From Stropharia rugosoannulata (taxonomy: Eukaryota > Basidiomycota > Agaricomycetes > Agaricales > Strophariaceae): a DNA stretch of 64,000 bases. Location of the stretch: the NCBI GenBank assembly GCA_028532985.1, contig JANCIK010000013.1, positions 248,001 to 312,000 of the forward strand, given 5' to 3'. A program made the translations under genes and the position numbers. The notes under the pieces were generated by a model that was not told the DNA's origin, did not search any database, and worked only from the letters and a program-made list of their open reading frames with translations. Shown here one piece after another: positions 44,429 to 56,917 of this stretch; position 1 is the stretch's first letter, and every line of letters begins with the position of its first letter.

Positions 44429-44432
44429 ACGC
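44429..44432. repeat. Target-site duplication, left copy (ACGC)
   Basis: ACGC directly abuts the TG that opens the 5' LTR; the same four bases follow the 3' LTR at 55967-55970. Confidence 0.7.
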
Positions 44433-45397
44433 TGTGAGGGGCTGGGGCTGGCCCCTCGTGAAAACATGAAAAACCATAAGGTTCAGAACATAGATACACA
44501 AGAAGCGACATATCCGCCATAACGATCGGAAACTACTATCGGAAACTGAAGGAACAAGAAGAAGCACGAAATATGAAGTCTAAGATATGAAGATGCAAGT
44601 TTATTCGAAGATATGAAATATGTACATGATGAAACAAGAAGACAAGCACAAGGAAGACTCAAGATGTTATTACAACTCAATGGCAGATCAAGAAAGATAA
44701 CAGCATCAGAGCAATATTGGACTTCTGATGCCGACAACATCAGATCAATATTAACAATCTGATGTAACTATGGACCCACAAGGGAGTCAATCACATGGAA
44801 ATACTCGTACATACGACATGGGACAAATATGGCAACGGATTCCGACGATATGCAGGGGTTTCCGACGACATGCAAGCGTGTGGTAGCAGAAAGCAGAAGT
44901 ATCTCGATACAAACACAAGGGACATAGGTGTGGAAAGAGGGTCGGAGGAGATGTGTGTTTAGGGGAGAACATGGAGTTGATCCGGTCGCAGGAAGATCTC
45001 TTGTGCTTGGGCTTGGTTTCCGAAGATAAGGATATTTGTGGCCAAGATATGAAGCATGCTGTAGTGCAGCATGGTTTCCGACGAGATAAAGTCAGCACGG
45101 GCGGTCGGATCTTCGTGGATGGATATGGTACGATCTGGGCATGGCAACCAGACGGGTATTTAAGGAGTAGAATATCTCTGTACTTCTCCAGCTTCCTTCA
45201 GGGTTAAATTCTACCTACACACACCATACCAGTTCGCATCGGAAACCGTTGTTTAAACCTCGTACACTGGAAGCTCCTTGTTTTGAAACAAGTAAAACCT
45301 TTTCAACGTGCTATCGTTGTACACACGTTGCCTTCGCACATTGTGAACTTTAGAGACAGGCTTTTCAGACCAGTCCAACCCAACTTCGCACCTCACA
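44433..45397 (+). repeat. 5' LTR (965 bp)
   Basis: Begins TGTGAGG and ends CCTCACA, a 7-bp inverted terminal pair. It matches 55003-55966 base for base except for one additional G. A TATA-like TATTTAAG at 45157-45164, followed by a pyrimidine-rich stretch, may be the element's promoter; the R region would begin shortly after. Confidence 0.95.
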
Positions 45398-45400
45398 ACG

Positions 45401-45418
45401 TGGAGCCCACCGCGAGGG
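45401..45418 (+). other. Primer-binding site
   Basis: Three bases after the 5' LTR the sequence TGGAGCCCACCGCGAGGG begins with TGG, complementary to a tRNA 3'-CCA end, and continues as an acceptor/T-stem complement would. The tRNA species was not identified. Confidence 0.65.
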
Positions 45419-45587
45419 TCTACAGTTCACAATAGATCCGTCTGTTCCAGACCGTCGGATAACTCGTCAACTTGCTGCAGAATTTGCTATACCCCTACAA
45501 CCTCCTGAAGCACCCATCAAGAGAAGAAGGAAAAGACCGACACCGTCAGGAAGCCAAATATCTTCAGTACTCAGCCATATATCGGAA

Positions 45588-47570
45588 ATGGATCACGGAA
45601 TCGAAGCAAACCCTTTTGAAGTTCAAACCGTGGCGCCCAAAGTCAAGCCTTACCCAAATCGCAACTCAAAAGATGCTCCATCGTTTACAGGACCCACTAC
45701 TCCTTTACATCGATACCTAGAGGACATCGAGGAATTATGCAAAGACAGGGGAGACACATCGGATATCACACGGATTACAAAAACCCTGTGGTATGTGGAT
45801 TACCGATACCACGAAACATGGAAGAATATTCTAGATGAAAACAAATCCTGGAAGGAGAATAAACAAATATTACTGGAATATTTCCCTGGGTTGGATTCGC
45901 TCTACAAATACTCAGTCAACGATCTGCATAAATTAATACAGAAGTTTTCGAGCAAACCCATGGATAATCAAGAACTTCTAGCAGAATATCATTGTGAATT
46001 CATGATTATAGCTACTTATCTGGAGAAGGAGCAATTATCATCAAGAGACGACATCAACAGAAACTATGTTCTAGGTCTTCCAAAAGAATTCAGGGCGAAG
46101 GTTCTTACTCAATTAACGGCTGAAGACCCGAAGCGGAAACCGGGCCTGGTTCATGATTATCTTCAAGTTAATCGAGCAGCTCGATATGTTCTTCAAGATA
46201 ACACTTATTCTGACAGGTATGGCCTTGAAGACACACCTCGTGAACGGACGAAAACCGAAGAAACTGCTCTTGAGCTCATGCTAAGGAAAATGACATCGGA
46301 ATTAGGATCAATAAAGATGTTTATGCAAGGCCAACCTAATACATCTTTTCCGACGCAAGAAAGACCTATGTATCGTTCCACTCCGTGCTACGCCCCTGGT
46401 TGCTTGTTTTGCGGAGACATTAATCATATTATGAGGTCTTGCAACTTGCCGGATGAATTTATAAACAAGGGAATCATCAAACAAGGGCCGAATGGTAGAT
46501 TCACAATGGCTAACGGCGACTGGATCAATGGAACTGGAACAATAAAAGAAAGGATTGAAAACATCCTCAAACTGCAACGTGCTCGAGATGTACCCCCTCA
46601 CCTGTCGCCAGCTACCACGATGATGTTTTCCTGTACTACGGCTGAAACCTTGTTTAATTCTTCCAGTAAACTCGAAGAAGTCGACGAAGAAATCGGTGAG
46701 GTTTATCTGAAGACAAGGTCTTCGCCCCAAGACAAACCTGGACCAGGCAAAAACTCATCTGCTTATGAAAAAGTCCCTGAAGTCGTGATTGCCGAAAGGA
46801 AATCGGAAAAGACAATACCAGAAGCACATGTAAGATTTGAACCGGCTAAAGGACCCCAGTACCGATTCACCTCAGGAGCGGAAAATCTGGATCTTCTTAA
46901 GAAAGTCATATCAAAATCTTTGGATGCAGAAATTACTATTTCTCAAAGAGAGTTGTTGGCTATTTCTGGAGAACTTCGGAAATATTTCAAGGAAACAACT
47001 ACACCAAAGAGAATTCCGACGGTTAGCTATGTTCATGGCGAAGAAAATGAAGGGTCTTATGTGCTACAATTTGCTTCGGAAAATGGGCCATCGGATAGAG
47101 TCCTTTTGACGGCTTCTCCCCTTATGAAACTCAGGGTGATACCCGCGTTGCTAAACGGTGAATTCACGGCGGAATGTGTCTTGGACCAAGGATCGGAAAT
47201 CATGGCAATGGACAAGCGCATATGGAGAAAACTGTCTCACAATATAAACCCAGAAAGGAAAATATATATGGAGTCTGCCAACACAGAATTATCGCAAACG
47301 GATGGAATGTGCGAAAACCTTAAAATCACTATTGGAAGCCTTGAACTCTATTTTCAAGTACATGTCGTGGATAAAGCCCCTTTTCAAGTTCTGATAGGAC
47401 GACCGTTCTTTGTGTATACTGGATGCACTACTAGGGATTATACAAATGGCGACCAGGAAATTACTTTGACTTGCCCCAACACGCAAAAAGTGGTTACTAT
47501 TCCAACTCAGCCCAGGAACAAGGTTTCCGAAAAAGAGTTAGCGGATTTTCCAGAATCCCGACTGAATTAA
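45588..47570 (+). CDS. gag: Retrotransposon Gag with aspartic protease
   Basis: Single exon, 660 residues. Residues ~20-230 form a capsid-like helical region (ILLEYFPGLDSLYKYSVNDL and neighbours). A zinc knuckle CX2CX4HX4C reads CLFCGDINHIMRSC at about residue 273. A charged linker follows, then a retropepsin-like domain with active-site core VLDQGSEIMAM near residue 530 and the later turn VLIGRPFF. Here the protease belongs to the first frame, not to pol. The last 100 nt (47471-47570) overlap the start of the pol frame. The first ATG after the leader was taken as start. Confidence 0.9.
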   Translation: MDHGIEANPFEVQTVAPKVKPYPNRNSKDAPSFTGPTTPLHRYLEDIEELCKDRGDTSDITRITKTLWYVDYRYHETWKNILDENKSWKENKQILLEYFPGLDSLYKYSVNDLHKLIQKFSSKPMDNQELLAEYHCEFMIIATYLEKEQLSSRDDINRNYVLGLPKEFRAKVLTQLTAEDPKRKPGLVHDYLQVNRAARYVLQDNTYSDRYGLEDTPRERTKTEETALELMLRKMTSELGSIKMFMQGQPNTSFPTQERPMYRSTPCYAPGCLFCGDINHIMRSCNLPDEFINKGIIKQGPNGRFTMANGDWINGTGTIKERIENILKLQRARDVPPHLSPATTMMFSCTTAETLFNSSSKLEEVDEEIGEVYLKTRSSPQDKPGPGKNSSAYEKVPEVVIAERKSEKTIPEAHVRFEPAKGPQYRFTSGAENLDLLKKVISKSLDAEITISQRELLAISGELRKYFKETTTPKRIPTVSYVHGEENEGSYVLQFASENGPSDRVLLTASPLMKLRVIPALLNGEFTAECVLDQGSEIMAMDKRIWRKLSHNINPERKIYMESANTELSQTDGMCENLKITIGSLELYFQVHVVDKAPFQVLIGRPFFVYTGCTTRDYTNGDQEITLTCPNTQKVVTIPTQPRNKVSEKELADFPESRLN

Positions 47571-50500
47571 AACGGTCGGGAAAGATGTTCATGTTAAATA
47601 TAGTGCACAAGAAACGACATGAACAGCAAGAGAAGGATATTCCTTCAGCACTATCATTTGGACGATTTATAACTCCCTTATTTGCGGCAAGAATAGATGA
47701 TGAAAGAGGATCATCATACCATGAAATATACCCTACTAATTTTAATTTTGAAGTTTCGGCTAGATTTATCGGCCAATGTTTACAGAAGACTTATGCTTAC
47801 TCTTTTCAACAAAGAGCATTAATAATAAAAGCCAGGAAGAAATATAAACCTGTGGCAAGACGGACGTTTCCTGTGTCAACTACACTTCCCGAAGAATATC
47901 GTGTTATTAGAAGAATTCCATCGGATCCTCTGGCTAATATGAAACCGTTACCTTTTAAAGTGGACCATATTGAACCAGGAATACGCTATACTAAAGAACG
48001 AATGGACGCCTGGAACATAAATGAAGATGGCTTCTTGACACCGGATGAAGCTCGTCTAGTTCAATGGATCATTAAAGAACATGAGATGGGATTCGCCTGG
48101 AATGAGATGGAGAAAGGTGCCTTCAGAGAAGACTATTTTGAACCTCTAAAGATACCCGTTGTACCACATGAACCATGGGCGGAAAAACCGATACCGATAC
48201 CTCCAGGCATCGCTAAAGAAGTCACGAGAATTTTTCAAGATAAAGTCGCAAGCAAAGTATATGAACCTTCTAGTTCACCTTATCGGTCCAGGATCTTATA
48301 TGTGCCAAAGAAAAGCGGAGCAATACGGGTGGTGCATGACCTGAGAAGGTTGAATGCAGTAACCATAAAAGACTCAGCTCTACCGCCAGTTGTAGAACTT
48401 TATGCGGAATCTTTCGGTGGAAGAACTATCTATGCCATGTTTGATTTGTTCGTAGGATTTGACCATCGGGTTCTTCATCAAGATTCAAGAGATTATACTA
48501 CGTTCTCTTCGCCTATCGGAAACCTGAGATTGACCCGTCTACCACAAGGATTTACAAATTCGGTTCAAGTACAACAGGGAGATGTGTCATTTATCTTGGA
48601 GCCTGAGATTCCTGAATTTACGGCACCTTTTGTGGACGATGTACCGGTCAAAGGACCACGATCTTATTATCAAGATGAGAATGGGGTCTATGAAACGATT
48701 TCCGAAAACCCTGGTATCAGAAGATTTGTCTGGGAACACTTGAACAATGTACATCGCATTATTCAAAGAATACAGCATGCTGGAGGAACCTTCAATGCCT
48801 CGAAATCCTTTTTGGCTGTGCCAAGAATTAATGTTGCTGGCCATATGTGCAGCATCCAAGGAAGGACGGTTGATGAGTCAAAAGTCAGAGTTATCAGGGA
48901 TTGGAAACCTTGTGAAAACTTGACAGAAGTTCGTTCATTCTTGGGAACATTGGGTGTAATGCGTATCTTTATTAAAGATTATGCAATGCATTCAAGACCG
49001 TTAACTGAACTAACAAAGAAGGACGTTGAATTCACATGGGGACAAAGAGAACAAGAAGCAATGGACAGTTTAAAGCGTCTCTTAATTCAGTCTCCAGCAT
49101 TAACGGCATTGGACTATGAATCCGAAGGACAGATAATAATGGAGGTGGACTCAAGCAACATAGCCGTGGGTTTTATTTTATCTCAGGTTAAAGAAGACGG
49201 AAAGGAACATCCTGCGCGGTTTGGTTCTATAACTTGGAACGAAAGAGAATCAAGATACTCACAAGCCAAGATCGAGTTATATGGCCTATTTCGCAGCCTT
49301 AGAGCGTATCGGATATACCTGGTTGGAGTGGAAAACTTGATAGTCAGGACTGATGCGAGTTACCTCAAGGGAATGTTAAACAACCCCGATATACAACCTA
49401 ATGCTACGATAAATCGCTGGATAGCCGCCATACTTTTGTTTGACTTCAAGCTAGAACACGTCCCTGGAAAATCACATTCACCAGACGGTCTGTCAAGAAG
49501 GAGACGATCAGAATTAGATCCTCAAGAAGATTCCGAAGAAGAAGTAGAAGACTGGATCGACAGGGCATGTGGCTTCGGAATCTGGGTCTTAAACAAAAAT
49601 GACGATCGGAAATTCACTCACATGTCCATGGTACAGAAGAAAATACCAGGATCGTCATTGTCTTACAAGGCTATGGTACTTATTGCAGCTAAATCGGTAC
49701 CTCACCGTTCGGAAATTACTACAACGCTTAAATTACCGGTTTCCGACAGAGGGGCTGACATGGATGAGGAATTAAAGAAGGTCAAAGAATTTCTAGGCGA
49801 CCCCAAAAGACCCGCATGGATTCGCACAAGAAAGGAGTATGACCGCTTCCTCAAGAAAGTAAGGCAATTCTTCATACTGGACGGAAAGCTATGGAAAAGG
49901 TCCGATGATGGTGAACATAAACAAGTGGTACAACAAGAAGATAGGCTTCGGATACTTCAAGAAGTACATGATAACTTAGGACATAAGTCTTATTTCACTG
50001 TGTGGAATAGGCTCACGAAGCGTTTTTGGTGGCCTAACATCAGTAATGATCTTACGTGGTACTTGAAGACCTGCGATATATGTCAGCGACAGTCTAGGGT
50101 AAAGAACCTCATTCCGCCAACGGTAGCTCGTCCATTGTCGCTTTTTGTCAAGGTTCACGCGGATACTTTCTTTATGCCCAAAGGAAAAGGGGGAAAACAT
50201 CTCTGTCTTCATCTACGATGTTCACTTTCGGGAATGCCTGAAGCTCTGGCTGTAGCGTCGGAAAACCATACGGTTATAGGAGAATTTCTGTTGGATGTTA
50301 TGTCGCGATGGGGAGCTATGGCTATTATCGTGACAGACAATGGTACACCTTGGGTTAAAGCCGTGAACTACTTGGCGGAAAAATATGGAATCTACCACAT
50401 CAGAATTTCGGGATATAATTCGCAGGCAAACGGCTTGATTGAAAAACGACATCTCGATGTTAGGGAAGCAATAGTCAAGACTTGTGAAGGTGACTTATCA

Positions 50501-51121
50501 ATATGGCCATTAATTCTCCGATTTGTTTTATGGGCTGAACGTGTTACGGTACAAAAATCAACAGGTTATACTCCCTACTATATCGCACACGGAGTGGAAC
50601 CATTATTTCCATTTGACATTACAGAAGCGACTTTCATGTTTCCCGATCAAGTTGATATGATTTCCGAAGAAGAGCTAATAGCACGAAGAGCTATAATGCT
50701 GCAGAAGCGACCGGAAGATCTTGAAAGGGTCAAGGACAAAGTGGAGCAAGCACGGCTGAGGCAAGCTCGTTATTTTGAGCAATACAATAAGCATCGCATC
50801 GTGTTACAGGATTTCGCACCAGGTACTTTGGTCCTAGTCAGAAATTCACCAGTTGAAAAATCACTTGATCGGAAAACAAAACCGCGATACTTTGGGCCTC
50901 TAATGGTGTTACGACGAACGAAAGGGGGGTCTTACATCTGCGCTGAACTCAGTGGAGCCGTATCCTACAAGAGATTCGCCGCATATCGCCTAATACCTTA
51001 TATATCAAGAGAACCGCTTGAAATACCATGGGAACTATTGTCTCAACCCAAGGATCTAATTGAAGGCATGGTACGCGAAGAGGTACCTGAGGACTCGCAA
51101 GTGGCGCCTGATGATGAATAA
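47471..51121 (+). CDS. pol: Retrotransposon Pol: reverse transcriptase, RNase H, integrase
   Basis: An open frame of 1216 codons from its first ATG, read in the -1 (equivalently +2) frame relative to gag; probably expressed by frameshifting or re-initiation, so the true N-terminus is unknown. RT motifs: VVHDLRRLNAVT, RLPQGFTNS, and the catalytic FVDDV (near residue 385) in place of the usual YxDD. RNase H begins at IIMEVDSSNIAVGFILSQ and includes RTDASYLKG. Integrase has the HHCC zinc-binding part (HDNLGHKSYF...CDICQRQ) and the catalytic core with HADTFF, TDNGTPW and the Glu in NGLIEKRH. No chromodomain was recognised at the C-terminus. No stop or frameshift, so the enzyme set looks intact. 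Confidence 0.93.
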   Translation: MPQHAKSGYYSNSAQEQGFRKRVSGFSRIPTELKRSGKMFMLNIVHKKRHEQQEKDIPSALSFGRFITPLFAARIDDERGSSYHEIYPTNFNFEVSARFIGQCLQKTYAYSFQQRALIIKARKKYKPVARRTFPVSTTLPEEYRVIRRIPSDPLANMKPLPFKVDHIEPGIRYTKERMDAWNINEDGFLTPDEARLVQWIIKEHEMGFAWNEMEKGAFREDYFEPLKIPVVPHEPWAEKPIPIPPGIAKEVTRIFQDKVASKVYEPSSSPYRSRILYVPKKSGAIRVVHDLRRLNAVTIKDSALPPVVELYAESFGGRTIYAMFDLFVGFDHRVLHQDSRDYTTFSSPIGNLRLTRLPQGFTNSVQVQQGDVSFILEPEIPEFTAPFVDDVPVKGPRSYYQDENGVYETISENPGIRRFVWEHLNNVHRIIQRIQHAGGTFNASKSFLAVPRINVAGHMCSIQGRTVDESKVRVIRDWKPCENLTEVRSFLGTLGVMRIFIKDYAMHSRPLTELTKKDVEFTWGQREQEAMDSLKRLLIQSPALTALDYESEGQIIMEVDSSNIAVGFILSQVKEDGKEHPARFGSITWNERESRYSQAKIELYGLFRSLRAYRIYLVGVENLIVRTDASYLKGMLNNPDIQPNATINRWIAAILLFDFKLEHVPGKSHSPDGLSRRRRSELDPQEDSEEEVEDWIDRACGFGIWVLNKNDDRKFTHMSMVQKKIPGSSLSYKAMVLIAAKSVPHRSEITTTLKLPVSDRGADMDEELKKVKEFLGDPKRPAWIRTRKEYDRFLKKVRQFFILDGKLWKRSDDGEHKQVVQQEDRLRILQEVHDNLGHKSYFTVWNRLTKRFWWPNISNDLTWYLKTCDICQRQSRVKNLIPPTVARPLSLFVKVHADTFFMPKGKGGKHLCLHLRCSLSGMPEALAVASENHTVIGEFLLDVMSRWGAMAIIVTDNGTPWVKAVNYLAEKYGIYHIRISGYNSQANGLIEKRHLDVREAIVKTCEGDLSIWPLILRFVLWAERVTVQKSTGYTPYYIAHGVEPLFPFDITEATFMFPDQVDMISEEELIARRAIMLQKRPEDLERVKDKVEQARLRQARYFEQYNKHRIVLQDFAPGTLVLVRNSPVEKSLDRKTKPRYFGPLMVLRRTKGGSYICAELSGAVSYKRFAAYRLIPYISREPLEIPWELLSQPKDLIEGMVREEVPEDSQVAPDDE

Positions 51122-51380
51122 CAAGTTTCCGACAACGCTTACACAACCTATATTTCTTAATGGAGCTTCAACAGTTTCAAGTTCATTTCTTCTCATTTGT
51201 TAAATAAACTCTTTTTCTTTTAGGTTATGTTTCTGTTTTTACAAGATTATGAAATTATTGCTTTCAAACTAAAATGTGCATGACCAAGACAATTTATTGA
51301 CTACAAGATACTATGACAATATGGTTTCCGACGAAGGGCGAAAGGAAATACGACAAGAAGAAATACATATAAATCCTTTT

Positions 51381-52376
51381 TTACCTCCTGCGGAATCTTT
51401 TTACTTCCCCAGACATTCTACGGATCTCCTCGATACGCTCCATTGATAATTCCACCAGATCGCGAAGCCGATTTTCCATGTCAGAATAATGTCGCAGGTT
51501 TCTTTCGCAAAGGTCGTCCAGCTCTTCAAGCCCATCTGTTGGGTTGGCAGTCGTTTGCCATTCGCGGAAATCTCGCACCAACTGTGTATATGGTGCATAC
51601 GAGGGTAAACCCTCAACAGGACCGCTAGAACTTGCGTTGGGACTAGAACGCGTAATACCTGTGCAACGAGGTTACCGAAACCTGTTAAAGATAGGGAATT
51701 GTAATTACTCACCTGAAGTTCCCTCGCCAACATCTTTTTGCTTTGCGACGATGGACTCCGTGTACTCGAAAACAGGCGTTGCCTCATAGTATGGAAGAGG
51801 GCCATCATCCTCAATTCGCATAGGGCTCGAAGGCGCGTTGTAGGGGGCTACTGCGTTGGCCGTGTCGTCTGCTTCAAGTTCGTCCACTTCTTCGACCTCG
51901 TTGTCCTGGCTGCTGTCGCTGTCGCCGTCGCTATCTTCTTCGGGCTCTGGGTGGACGGTACGGGACCGTCGGTCGTATGAGAAGTCGCTGCCAGCTAAGG
52001 CACGAGTCAGGAAGTCGCCCGGGTGTTGTTTCTAAATTACGGATGAAGTTATCAGCATGAAAGCGACAGAATACAATTAACAGACACTTACACATTCGGC
52101 AGTATTATTGCTGCAATTCTTTTTGTCAACCTTGCAATTGGTACATGCCCTGCTCCAGCGAGGTGTGTAGCGCAAAGTACACATATAGCCGGGGTGACTT
52201 TGGCACCAAGAACACCGCTAGGTCAATGCTTTAGTATGGCTGTAACTCAGTATGGCATATTTACTCACCTGGTCGTACTCATACCACCCTTCTGCAAGTC
52301 CAAGAATTTGTGGAGCGGACCAGCGCATATCGACTTCATACGTAGAGGCGGGACGAGCGGTGCGACGAGGAGGCAT
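51381..52376 (-). CDS. Antisense cargo gene 1: Cys-rich, acidic protein (unknown)
   Basis: Lies inside the retrotransposon, opposite to gag-pol. Four exons (52376-52269, 52217-52092, 52031-51713, 51658-51381) with canonical GT..AG introns of 51-60 nt join in phase to 276 residues. It starts MPPRRTARPAS. Exon 2 is cysteine-rich: CX2CX7C (CSWCQSHPGYMC), then ACTNCKVDKKNC followed by SNNTAEC, giving CX2CX6CX6C, reminiscent of half a fungal Zn2Cys6 cluster. Exon 3 is strongly acidic (EDSDGDSDSSQDNEVEEVDE). Exon 4 forms a likely coiled coil (DLVELSMERIEEIRRMSGEV) ending in a basic KRFRRR tail. A TATA box lies 65 nt upstream. Zinc finger, acidic stretch and coiled coil suggest a nuclear or nucleic-acid-binding protein (inference). 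Confidence 0.75.
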
Positions 52377-52440
52377 GTCTTAAGCAGGTGATGAATGTGG
52401 GGGGGGAAGAATGGTGAAAGTATGAGTGGAATGGGCAGGC

Positions 52441-52448
52441 TTTTTATA
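52441..52448 (-). promoter_or_regulatory. TATA box of antisense cargo gene 1
   Basis: Reads TATAAAAA on the minus strand, context AGAATATAAAAAGCC, about 65 nt upstream of the ATG at 52376. Confidence 0.55.
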
Positions 52449-52996
52449 TTCTTCTGGGACAGTGGTTCAGCACGCTTTCGGAAATCGGCTAGCTTTGAAT
52501 GGGTCCGGCATCAGGCGTGGATGGCACTATGAAGAAACCGATAGAATGCTGTCGATTCTTCTCTATGACTCGGTCCTATATGTTGGACAATTGGCCTGCC
52601 TTTACTGGAACCGCGATAACTTCGACGCGAATCTTGTTCGGATTTTCTATTTTTAGGTCGGAAATCACCGTGGCTCATGTTCTGGAAAGCGGCGTTGCCT
52701 AATCAAGTATGACGGCGTGATGGCGTCGGGTTTATGGTGACGTGCCGTGCTGCTTTAGGGAATGGCGATACCTCTTTTGTCTGCCGTCCGGTTGTTGCTG
52801 CGGCATTGCTCTGGGCTGCCGCGGAATTTTCAACTGGCGTTTTCGGCTGTAATGGCGCATGTGTAAGCTGGGCGGCTTGTTCAGTTTTACTTCGGCATCT
52901 TCCATTTTCATTCGGCATTTTTCGGCATCGTATGGCAGTGTCAAATTTGTGTGCGGAAATCTATCATAAGGAGTTTACATCTATGGGCAGTTGTAT

Positions 52997-53506
52997 CTAC
53001 GGCTGATTGGCTTGTTTCTCGATCCAGTCCCTCCATCTCTCTACTCCATCTATGGTGAAGTCAGTTTCGCACAAGTAGCAGTGGCGGAAACCTTGCGACT
53101 GCTTCTCAGCTGCTTTGAGTAGGCTCAATGCCTTATCCTGCTCGCTGTCTACAAGAACGGCCCCGTATTCGCTCATGACCCGGCGAAGCAAGAGTAGTGT
53201 CCACGATGACTGGGGTCGGAATTGTTTCGTGGATATATAATCTTCGAAATGGTCATTCTGTGCAGAATAGGGATTGTCAATTGGGTTTGATTTCAACGGG
53301 ACAAGTGGGTCAACTTACAATGTAATGGCACAGGGCGGCAAGTGTCCGATGTGTTTCCATCGCGTCTGTTGCGAACGAGATAGCATTTGATCGGATATCA
53401 ATTGGTCTATGGTAGGCCGAATGGCATGCTCTAGGACCTGCATGATGTCCGCTGGATTCTTCACAGCTGTGGTCAATAATGTGGTGAATCGCGTGGTGGT
53501 GCTCAT
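52997..53506 (-). CDS. Antisense cargo gene 2: unknown protein
   Basis: Exon 1 begins at 53506 (MSTTTRFTTLLTTAVKNPAD) and an intron 53318-53258 leads to exon 2 (53257-52997), which encodes NDHFEDYISTKQF ... RHCYLCETDFTIDGVERWRDW and stops. The exon 2 frame continues in exon 1 from the frame reading METHRTLAALCHYI (its ATG at 53360), not from the frame of the 53506 ATG. Either a one-base change has broken the gene near 53385, or the shorter start at 53360 is used. A CYLC pair in exon 2 is the only metal-site-like feature. A TATA box lies 33 nt upstream of 53506. Family not recognised. Confidence 0.5.
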
Positions 53507-53538
53507 TTCTGGTGTTTGGGCAGACTAGTTGCCTTCCC

Positions 53539-53545
53539 TTTTATA
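53539..53545 (-). promoter_or_regulatory. TATA box of antisense cargo gene 2
   Basis: Reads TATAAAA on the minus strand in context TGTATAAAAGGGAAGG, 33 nt upstream of the ATG at 53506. Confidence 0.6.
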
Positions 53546-53649
53546 CAGATTTCAGGCGCTGGGCTACTTGGCATTGGACGATCTGGACGCATGGATACAT
53601 GTCACTTGTCTGGAGATTATCTAGCTAATTTCCGACAGCCGGTTGTTGG

Positions 53650-54135
53650 TTATGGGTCGCCTACTCCGCACACACATGCCTGTTGATACTGGAAGAAAAC
53701 GTCGTCCATGTGCTCCTTGATTTCGGGAATCTCGTGCCGGTGTATCCAAATGTCATCGTCATGTATCGCATACGCATTAACACCCTCAATTCGCCATGGT
53801 GATTTGCTCGTTGGGCGATTGATGTATGCCTACATGTTGACGACCATGCCATGCTATATACTATGATAGTGTTAGGCGGCACGTCCCCTGAAGACGTTAC
53901 TTACTGCTATGGTTTGTCCTAGGAACAAGAAGGACCGGAGATCGGTTATGACAGGCTGCAAGTTGATGGTGTCAAGCTGGAGTATTCGTGTGTATTCATA
54001 TTCTAGGGCTTCGACGAATGGATCAAGGCAATGTTTGAAGACATATGGGATCGGAAATCGCGATCGGAAATCGTTTAGATCGGTGGGCAACTCAAGCACT
54101 AAAGATTGAAGATATAGACGTAAAGGCGCTTGCAT
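53650..54135 (-). CDS. Antisense cargo gene 4: unknown protein
   Basis: Two exons, 54135-53905 and 53829-53650, with a GTAAGT..TAG intron of 75 nt, join in phase to 136 residues. The first exon starts MQAPLRLYLQSLVLELP and includes YVFKHCLDPFVEALEYEYTR; the second reads AYINRPTSKSPWRIEGVNAY, then HDDDIWIHRHEIPEIKEHM and ends CVCGVGDP. No family recognised; it looks like a small globular helical protein. It starts 31 nt after the stop of gene 3 and has its own TATA box overlapping the end of gene 3. Fusion to gene 3 through a 28-nt intron (54194-54167) would be in phase, but such an intron is too short to be likely. Confidence 0.65.
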
Positions 54136-54166
54136 TGCGGGTGCTACGGAATAATCTACTAGAGCT

Positions 54167-54916
54167 CTACACTTTATATATCCATCTCTCGCACCGATGT
54201 TCGGAATCTAGCATGTGGACGCTGGGAGGAACGGCCGTTTGAAGATGAAAGATCGCCGCTGGAATTTCTTCGATGTCTGATGTGTCTTCAGGTGTTGCGG
54301 CTGGCCTGAATGCTGGCAGGTGTTCTTCAAGGGTGTCTTCGGCTTTGACGCGGTTTGAAAACTGTAACCACCACCGACTGTTGCTGTCCAGGTCATTAAA
54401 TTCTTTGAAGTCGACTTGGTTTTCTTTGGTGGCATCGGCAGTGTCCTCAGCATATAGCGCCATGAACCGCAGTATGGTCGACCAATACTCAAACCCTTCA
54501 TGTTCCTCCATCGGAAACATCTCCAGTAAATGCCTGGCACTGGCGCTTAGGTAGCGGCATTCAGGTGGAATCATACGCTCGATTTCACGCTCATTTGACG
54601 GCCGCATGTTGACGCGCGAGCATAGCAATAAACGCTGCGCTATCATTAGCAGGGCTAGTTGTGAAGCGGTTCGAGGGCTTACCATGTGATCAAAATGATC
54701 ATGAACGTACGCTTCCACTTGCGCATGGTCGATTATGTTCAGTTCTCGTACGCTGCGAGTGCGGATGTCCTTGTAGATGGTGAGGCATAGGATTTCATGT
54801 TGGTGACGGATGGTCAACGCAAATTCACGCATGGTTGTTGGTACAACGAATGCATGGCTTCGGTTTCCTGGAGCAAAACAGAGCGAGCGAAATATTCTTT
54901 CTGCTGCGGGGTCCAT
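54167..54916 (-). CDS. Antisense cargo gene 3: unknown protein
   Basis: Single exon of 249 residues, minus strand, nearest to the 3' LTR. It starts MDPAAERIFRSLCFAPGNRS and is mostly helical in composition: FALTIRHQHEILCLTIYKDI, TASQLALLMIAQRLLL, YLSASARHLLEMFPMEE, STILRFMALYAEDTADATKE, followed by an acidic, Pro-rich segment (PAATPEDTSDIEEIPAA). No signal peptide, zinc motif or catalytic signature seen. A TATA box lies 34 nt upstream. The frame is open further upstream into the LTR, but the TATA box and the ATG context favour this start. Family not recognised. Confidence 0.68.
   Translation of the reverse strand: MDPAAERIFRSLCFAPGNRSHAFVVPTTMREFALTIRHQHEILCLTIYKDIRTRSVRELNIIDHAQVEAYVHDHFDHMVSPRTASQLALLMIAQRLLLCSRVNMRPSNEREIERMIPPECRYLSASARHLLEMFPMEEHEGFEYWSTILRFMALYAEDTADATKENQVDFKEFNDLDSNSRWWLQFSNRVKAEDTLEEHLPAFRPAATPEDTSDIEEIPAAIFHLQTAVPPSVHMLDSEHRCERWIYKV
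54173..54180 (-). promoter_or_regulatory. TATA box of antisense cargo gene 4, inside the end of gene 3
   Basis: TATATAAA on the minus strand, 38 nt upstream of the ATG at 54135. The same bases encode the last codons (Trp-Ile-Tyr-Lys) of gene 3. Confidence 0.55.
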
Positions 54917-54949
54917 GGTGCTTGATGGCGACGACGCTTTTGGCTGAAA

Positions 54950-54955
54950 TTTATA
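54950..54955 (-). promoter_or_regulatory. TATA box of antisense cargo gene 3
   Basis: TATAAA on the minus strand in context CCTATAAATTTC, 34 nt upstream of the ATG at 54916 and about 50 bp inside the element from the 3' LTR. Confidence 0.58.
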
Positions 54956-54992
54956 GGTTTCCGACCACCCAGGAGGGTGGTGTTTTAAAAGT

Positions 54993-55002
54993 TGGGGGGA
55001 GA
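54993..55002 (+). other. Polypurine tract
   Basis: GGGGGGAGA-type purine run immediately before the TGTGAGG start of the 3' LTR, where plus-strand DNA synthesis is primed in LTR elements. Confidence 0.7.
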
Positions 55003-55966
55003 TGTGAGGGGCTGGGGCTGGCCCCTCGTGAAAACATGAAAAACCATAAGGTTCAGAACATAGATACACAAGAAGCGACATATCCGCCATAACGATCGGA
55101 AACTACTATCGGAAACTGAAGGAACAAGAAGAAGCACGAAATATGAAGTCTAAGATATGAAGATGCAAGTTTATTCGAAGATATGAAATATGTACATGAT
55201 GAAACAAGAAGACAAGCACAAGGAAGACTCAAGATGTTATTACAACTCAATGGCAGATCAAGAAAGATAACAGCATCAGAGCAATATTGGACTTCTGATG
55301 CCGACAACATCAGATCAATATTAACAATCTGATGTAACTATGGACCCACAAGGGAGTCAATCACATGGAAATACTCGTACATACGACATGGGACAAATAT
55401 GGCAACGGATTCCGACGATATGCAGGGGTTTCCGACGACATGCAAGCGTGTGGTAGCAGAAAGCAGAAGTATCTCGATACAAACACAAGGGACATAGGTG
55501 TGGAAAGAGGGTCGGAGGAGATGTGTGTTTAGGGAGAACATGGAGTTGATCCGGTCGCAGGAAGATCTCTTGTGCTTGGGCTTGGTTTCCGAAGATAAGG
55601 ATATTTGTGGCCAAGATATGAAGCATGCTGTAGTGCAGCATGGTTTCCGACGAGATAAAGTCAGCACGGGCGGTCGGATCTTCGTGGATGGATATGGTAC
55701 GATCTGGGCATGGCAACCAGACGGGTATTTAAGGAGTAGAATATCTCTGTACTTCTCCAGCTTCCTTCAGGGTTAAATTCTACCTACACACACCATACCA
55801 GTTCGCATCGGAAACCGTTGTTTAAACCTCGTACACTGGAAGCTCCTTGTTTTGAAACAAGTAAAACCTTTTCAACGTGCTATCGTTGTACACACGTTGC
55901 CTTCGCACATTGTGAACTTTAGAGACAGGCTTTTCAGACCAGTCCAACCCAACTTCGCACCTCACA
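55003..55966 (+). repeat. 3' LTR (964 bp)
   Basis: Copy of 44433-45397, lacking one G (at the run near 55530). Starts TGTGAGG, ends CCTCACA. Confidence 0.95.
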
Positions 55967-55970
55967 ACGC
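55967..55970. repeat. Target-site duplication, right copy (ACGC)
   Basis: Same four bases as at 44429-44432, directly after the CA of the 3' LTR. Confidence 0.7.
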
Positions 55971-56917
55971 ACGTGCGCGTGCGCATTTGCCCGTCTCCCA
56001 TCTTCTCTGATCTTGTCTTGAATGGAGGCAAACATTAATTCAATCCACTACCCGCAATTCGCAATGGCAACAAGCAGGGTTAAGCATTAAGCACGATAAC
56101 ACAACACAACACAGACTAAACTCTACCCACACCAGTGCACAGCCCACTTCTACATCCACGGCACCATGTATACCAGCCACTAGAGTAGTGTTCGTTATCC
56201 ACGGCGCTGGCGCTGCCCCTGTTGTGCGCACTGTTGCGAATATCTACATAGATAGTACAATACAAATAGTACTTTTATTAATATGTGCCGGGATGGGCTA
56301 GCGCTAGTAGAGCAAGGCACACTGTGCATAAGTATAACATCCCACCTACGCCGGATTAGGATACCACTGAGTAGGCTGTAAGATAACCACCAAGGTGTGG
56401 CTGATAGGCAACAGGAAAGCACCAAGGGATGCCTGGTGTAGAGCCCATTAACAGATTTAGACAGTGTGTTCATATTGATGCATATCCTAAGCCGAAGTGC
56501 AGGATCGATGCGATGTTGTACAGAGGAAATTTTCTTGGAATATGTAGGATTCGGATGCGAACAATATGTATGATCCAGTCTCACTTTGTGCCGCGGAGCT
56601 GCGCAACTCGAGGTGCACGTTGTGACTCTGATGCAACAGAGCAGTTGCGTGCTTATTCTTCCAAGGAGCAACAGAACAGGTTCAGAAACCCAACAACTGG
56701 GCACCAGTACCGAATGTATTATTATCTGCGCGGACAGTACTAGGAAAGGAGACAGTGGGTATGGAATTGAAGCTGGGTATTAGGGTGGGAATGGGGCAGG
56801 AGTTATGACGGCGAAGAACATATCGTAGTACTATGACAGGGATGCTCGAGAGTGACGTGGTGAACACACTAGCAAACAACACAGAAATCGATATACGACG
56901 ATAGACCTCGCTGCCAT

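Follow-up and report, generated by a model that had tools for sequence, protein, structure and literature searches.

Short DNA words read by a transposon's own protein are known from the VANDAL21 and VANDAL6 elements of Arabidopsis and their VANC anti-silencing proteins; in the passages that describe them (PMC5735166, PMC10398659), a family-specific short word is enriched in one family without being so in its relatives, of which one has a different word, and the proposed reader is element-encoded and rapidly diversifying. A similar arrangement is proposed for a complete Ty3/gypsy retrotransposon of the basidiomycete Stropharia rugosoannulata, at positions 44433-55966 of the window analyzed here, a stretch of 64,000 nt (contig JANCIK010000013.1, positions 248,001 to 312,000). 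The element carries a cassette of four minus-strand genes, g1 to g4, between the pol stop codon (51121) and the polypurine tract and 3' long terminal repeat (LTR; from 55003), together with dispersed sites of the word TCGGAAA. There are also clear differences from the systems of those passages: VANDALs are plant DNA transposons (VANDAL/Mutator-like), whereas this is an LTR retrotransposon; VANC words are found mostly in noncoding tandem repeats and share one orientation, whereas the sites here are single, on both strands, and extend into gag and pol; and the candidate reader is a cysteine (Cys)-cluster protein, for which no VANC homology was found and whose binding to the word is predicted.

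Antisense open reading frames between pol and the 3' LTR have been described in the plant LTR retrotransposons Grande, RIRE2, and Retand, where, according to the relevant passages (PMC7264820, PMC11963269), they lie in the same place as the genes here and are likewise kept in most copies; Grande has its own antisense promoter, as here, and the TRP28 domain of the Retand antisense product is predicted to bind DNA. In the fungal element there are instead four separate genes, three of them spliced with conserved introns, and they are unrelated to the plant frames by Pfam. Its dispersed, matching word has no counterpart mentioned in the passages of these two papers on Grande, RIRE2, and Retand, and the words "intron" and "transcription factor" are absent from the main texts of both. 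The Boty-like elements of Botrytis, cited in PMC7264820 and PMC8365987, are also fungal gypsy-type elements with an antisense gene (brtn) after pol; the citing passages give them one extra antisense gene, and neither a spliced cassette of several genes nor a scattered word is mentioned. In fungi, TET/JBP dioxygenases are also carried by transposons (PMC12730594) as cargo thought to aid escape from methylation silencing, but there the cargo is enzymatic, in sense orientation, and of a known family, and its carriers are DNA transposons, whereas here there is an unrecognized Cys-cluster protein and a word.

A spliced antisense cassette under selection

A cassette search of the 48-Mb, 20-contig host genome yielded 36 matched stretches, and 23 copies were aligned, of which 19 are full length (the window copy included) and in 4 the 3' portion of g1 is not well matched; shorter pieces were excluded. 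The gene models were taken from this alignment and not from the window copy. Gene g1 (51381-52376) has four exons (52376-52269, 52217-52092, 52031-51713, and 51658-51381) and three introns, is intact in 17 of the 23 copies, and encodes 276 amino acids in most of these, with 263 or 280 in a few. Genes g2 (52997-53506; exons 53506-53319 and 53257-52997) and g3 (53650-54135; exons 54135-53905 and 53860-53650) have a single intron each and are intact in 20 and 19 copies, encoding 149 and 147 amino acids, respectively; g4 (54167-54916) is a single exon without an intron, intact in 16 copies and encoding 247 amino acids. All four frames are intact together in 9 of the 23. Relative to most copies, 1-nt insertions or deletions put three parts of the window copy out of frame: exon 1 of g2, exon 2 of g3, and the final codons of g4, which finishes in the shifted frame after 249 codons, and g1 is the sole cassette gene that is fully open there. 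Among six near-identical copies (51381-54955), gap-variable columns outnumber substituted columns (63 versus 37), and some of the frame shifts may therefore be assembly errors.

Selection on the predicted proteins is evident from the ratio of nonsynonymous to synonymous substitutions (dN/dS), which averages 0.12 for g4, 0.135 for g1, 0.20 for g3, and 0.23 for g2 over the 202 to 225 of 253 copy pairs with dS greater than 0.05, closer pairs having been dropped. Many private substitutions (127 of 372) are CpG to TpG or CpA changes, so that decay following insertion would, if it has any effect, raise dN. Across 18 divergent cassettes, shared variable sites accumulate at third positions of the predicted frames, clearly so in g4, in the first exon of g3, and in the second and fourth of g1, more weakly in g2, and not in the acidic exon 3 of g1; because of this concentration the frames are not attributable to chance. 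We regard it as nearly certain that the antisense cassette is real and under selection.

A preliminary description of this DNA had proposed four antisense protein-coding genes with their own promoters between the pol stop and the polypurine tract, and the frames, the copy alignment, and the dN/dS values bear this out. It had given introns to two genes where there are three spliced genes, and although the TATA box that it saw upstream of each ATG is present, the boxes start 72, 39, 45, and 39 nt upstream in g1 to g4, giving a range of 39 to 72 nt and not 33 to 65 nt. Its explanation for the survival of the introns, namely that the cassette faces opposite to the genomic RNA, is supported: all five introns (44 to 61 nt) keep their GT..AG ends in 23 of 23 copies, despite g1 introns that diverge by 8 to 52% between subfamilies (unlike pairs compared). 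It had held that dN/dS near 1 and disrupted frames in all related copies would speak against the cassette; dN/dS of 0.12 to 0.23, with each frame intact in 16 to 20 of the copies, points the other way. Finally, it knew of no fungal cassette of this kind. For antisense cargo as such, brtn of Boty is a precedent, but searches of the open-access literature turned up no antisense cassette of several spliced genes combined with a dispersed word (subscription papers lay outside the scope). What may be new is the spliced multigene cassette with its matching word; antisense frames after pol are known in plants, as is a single gene in Boty.

A word dispersed over the whole element

The word TCGGAAA, or its complement TTTCCGA, occurs 36 times between positions 44526 and 55814, on both strands, and in the LTRs, gag, pol, and the cassette alike. 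This is 16-fold above the 2.2 sites expected from dinucleotide composition, and the 52.4 kb of window DNA outside the element has only 5. When the LTR is counted once there are 30 sites versus 2.1 expected, compared with 6 to 9 for the most frequent 7-mers of four 11-kb host stretches. The excess is one of the exact word: there are 33 exact sites in 10,970 nt (19 and 14 on the two strands), one-mismatch words are hardly in excess (44 versus 36 in a host stretch of equal length), and the flanks of the sites are unrelated, save for a slight preference for a pyrimidine and C after the word.

The sites are neither confined to noncoding DNA nor explained by codon usage. The gag-protease frame (45588-47570, plus strand, from its first ATG) contains 6 and the pol frame (47435-51121, plus strand) contains 8, in all three reading frames, versus means of 1.2 and 0.9 after synonymous-codon shuffling, with a maximum of 5 in any of 1,000 shuffles for each gene. 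The sites are also unusually well kept. In the region 51000-55972 of 22 copies (one of the 23 having been dropped for its short LTR alignment), 15 word sites are identical in an average of 18.7 of the 21 other copies, whereas the averages are 12.5 for 1,235 words that likewise contain one CpG and 11.9 for 72 words matched in composition. Decay of CpGs is lower in the word, at 0.046 for its 15 CpGs compared with 0.137 for 243 others (permutation P = 5e-5), and the decay itself suggests that copies of this family are subject to CpG methylation by the host.

Several sites lie close to promoters. A TCGGAAA site precedes the TATA box of g4 by 3 nt, that of g1 by 30 nt, and that of g2 by 84 nt, and the 3' LTR (55003-55966, plus strand) contains six sites together with a TATTTAA at 55726. 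Genome-wide there are 97 spaced pairs of the form TCGGAAA-N6-TCGGAAA, in every case with the LTR or the g3 spacer of this family, and the reversed control gives none.

g1 and its cysteine cluster

Exon 2 of g1 (52092-52217, minus strand) encodes a Cys cluster, C-x2-C-x7-C-x11-C-x2-C-x6-C-x6-C, whose seven Cys residues are invariant in the 10 variants aligned. Zinc clusters of the Gal4 type (Zn2Cys6) have the spacing C-x2-C-x6-C-x5-12-C-x2-C-x6-8-C, and words with a CGG core are their targets. The spacing in g1, C-x2-C-x7-C-x11-C-x2-C-x6-C, is one residue off this pattern, with the seventh Cys in addition, and the product of g1 is likely to be a DNA-binding protein of the zinc-cluster kind. The exons of the finger are strongly conserved at the protein level, with dN of 0.016 to 0.047 and dS of 0.39 to 2.04.

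The history of g1 differs from that of its neighbors. Between three subfamily pairs, dS is 0.5 to 2.8 for g1, but 0.08 to 0.10 for pol and 0.02 to 0.04 for g4; g1 synonymous divergence (51381-52376) is thus 5 to 20 times that of the adjoining pol. High divergence of g1 beside low divergence of pol and g4 indicates that elements much alike elsewhere have exchanged old g1 alleles, presumably through recombination.

The preliminary description had suggested that the genes encode either regulators of the element or captured host genes. The first is favored for g1, given the Cys cluster that it encodes and the TCGGAAA sites along the whole element, and the second finds no backing, as g1 and g4 have no host homologue at E ≤ 1 in the whole genome and g1 to g4 match no Pfam family at E ≤ 1, including TRP28 of Retand. 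Matches to the Pfam zinc-cluster family Zn_clus (PF00172) number 41 in the genome, and none lies inside a cassette. Searching 5.8 billion proteins with g1 and g4 also gave no match at E ≤ 1; spliced genes such as g1 to g3 could be missed by simple gene callers, whereas g4 is unspliced. The structure prediction and remote-homology search that the description had called for gave no usable fold and no homologue: an AlphaFold2 model of g4 from 15 near-identical sequences had a predicted local distance difference test score (pLDDT) of 35 and was not used, and the g1 finger matched no PDB sequence at E ≤ 10.

Related families and their words

Among the best 44 of 449 candidates, relatives of pol with 45 to 55% identity form several families in the host genome, and three of these carry dispersed CGG-containing words of their own, one of them with its own Cys-cluster gene. 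That one (C6:3275900-3292000; L037/L046) has its pol and 3' LTR separated by 5.8 kb with antisense frames, which include a Cys cluster, C-x2-C-x8-C-x8-C-x2-C-x9-C, that occurs with its coiled-coil-like exon at eight genomic places; its words are a looser set containing CGGG, for example, CGGGTTA (12 versus 1.0 expected). A second, very abundant gypsy family (at least 50 matches, the best 50 of 432 candidates) has the word CAGCGGA, with 39 sites in 5.4 kb versus 1.0 expected, 23 in another 4.6 kb versus 0.8 expected, and 47 one-mismatch words. In all, about 60 sites of CAGCGGA, on both strands, were counted in the roughly 10 kb of this family that was read (L048, C12:2617500-2623700; L045, minus strand). 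The third, family F5 (C10), has the word CGGTATA (9 versus 0.6 expected). No comparable word, with a maximum of 7 sites, was found in families F1 to F4 or in those at C3, C7, C11, and C8/C2, for which 1.25 to 6.3 kb were read, the shorter of these stretches having little power.

The antisense genes also differ between families. F2 (C8), F3 (C9), F4, and F5 share a homologous antisense gene directly after pol, with 38 to 41% identity to that of F4 and two predicted exons in F2 to F4, and F1 (C12) has a different antisense frame there. Profile-profile comparison of g1 to g4 with the antisense genes of the other families detected no homology, with a best probability of 1.2 of 100. The tail of the after-pol gene, DMPDLE(T/P)..PNSPLY, is conserved in at least four gypsy families (L043, L044, and L045; C10:3164037-3164459).

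What the cassette may do

The best single explanation, which we hold to be about evenly balanced between right and wrong, is that the g1 protein reads TCGGAAA. It is favored because of the Cys cluster, the CGG core of the word, the sites near promoters, and the second family with a pair of its own. On this model, antisense mRNAs from the cassette's own promoters would be spliced and give the g1 protein, which would occupy TCGGAAA throughout every family copy, from the LTR to gag, pol, and the vicinity of the cassette promoters. Such occupancy could either activate the family or hold off silencing by host CpG methylation, leaving untouched the host genome, which shows no excess of the word. Introns recognized only on the minus strand would outlast the RNA stage, and g2 to g4 would be accessory proteins. 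Because word sites extend into coding DNA, we favor element-wide, VANC-like occupancy against silencing, with plain activation as the main alternative.

Several observations weigh against reading of the word by g1. The protein does not match Zn_clus at E ≤ 1, a model of the 42-residue finger is weak (pLDDT of 63), a PDB fold search with it found nothing better than an E value of 7.3, and the loose Cys pattern is also met once in an LTR-antisense frame. One of the four cassette TATA boxes, that of g3, has no TCGGAAA within 160 nt upstream, and the difference in CpG decay is not significant when only private changes are considered (P = 0.089). The pairing of word and protein rests on two families, and for the family with the strongest word, CAGCGGA, the 6.2 kb that were read, which do not include the stretch after pol, contain no Cys cluster.

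The last of these points would also fit an alternative in which the element exploits a host transcription factor that binds TCGGAAA for its expression, with g1 and the other proteins acting elsewhere, for instance in nuclear import of cDNA, particle assembly, or control of superinfection. Sites upstream of the TATTTAA of the LTR are what such a factor would use, and binding of the word by g1 is itself a prediction. Nonetheless, we consider a host factor rather unlikely: the word is sparse in the host DNA of the window, with roughly one site every 11.5 kb, the 97 spaced pairs all belong to this family, related families lack TCGGAAA and have other CGG words instead, and a promoter site is not expected inside gag and pol. 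These same internal sites bear on the simpler proposal that g1 is a plain activator of the LTR and cassette promoters, in a role like that of Tat or Tax, with the sites elsewhere being decoys or by-products. The sites in the LTR and those just upstream of three cassette TATA boxes are consistent with this, but 14 of the 36 lie in gag and pol, exceeding the synonymous-codon shuffles, and we judge it unlikely. A cassette of merely fortuitous frames in decaying cargo, as the shifted g2, g3, and g4 end of the window copy and the small number of copies with four intact frames might suggest, is extremely improbable and already largely refuted, given the low dN/dS, the splice sites kept in divergent introns, and the possibility that some shifts are assembly artifacts.

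More broadly, it is possible, although somewhat doubtful, that fungal LTR retrotransposons evolved self-recognition independently of VANDALs, through a CGG-core word for each family, scattered over the full length of the element and within its coding DNA, and a Cys-cluster reader in a spliced antisense cassette directed against silencing, with cassettes and word-reader pairs turning over between families and recombination exchanging reader genes among subfamilies. If this is so, a dispersed word and a reader encoded by the transposon itself would provide self-specific anti-silencing or activation outside plants and in retrotransposons, and would explain the recurrent antisense frames after pol in plant and fungal gypsy elements; the pairs of zinc-cluster protein and DNA word would be directly testable in vitro. 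The cassette also illustrates that intron-bearing genes can ride a retroelement by taking the opposite orientation.

The carrier element and minor observations

The element is bounded by a 5' LTR (44433-45397, plus strand; TGTGAGG...CCTCACA) and the 3' LTR, which align over 968 and 967 nt with a single gap and no mismatches, and is flanked by a 4-bp target site duplication, ACGC (44429-44432 and 55967-55970). The gag-protease frame is open and matches Pfam DUF4100 over 45594-47567. The open pol frame encodes reverse transcriptase (RT), RNase H, and an integrase zinc-binding domain, with Pfam matches over the cutoff for RT_RNaseH_2, RT_RNaseH, and Integrase_H2C2 and an RVT_1 score of 23.1 bits, under its cutoff of 29.6. 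Assignment to Ty3/gypsy follows from the paired LTRs with their duplication and from RNase H preceding the integrase zinc-binding domain. Among the 5.8 billion proteins, pol has 1,083 relatives at E ≤ 1e-10; few of the best 120 are named, and those are from Leucocoprinus, Rhodofomes, Pleurotus, and Candolleomyces (mushrooms and relatives). A scan of IMG/VR with pol gave no match.

An isolated 111-bp piece resembling g3 (L036:2001-2111; 86% identity) was considered as a host source gene of g3 and rejected, as it is decayed, with stop codons, and is a remnant of an older copy. Words in the flanks of L043 and L038 were likewise rejected as dispersed words, being in tandem repeats or inverted-repeat arrays. 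A repeat that carries TCTCGGCTTT forms inverted arrays in L043:2826-4780, which are probably the termini of a DNA transposon.

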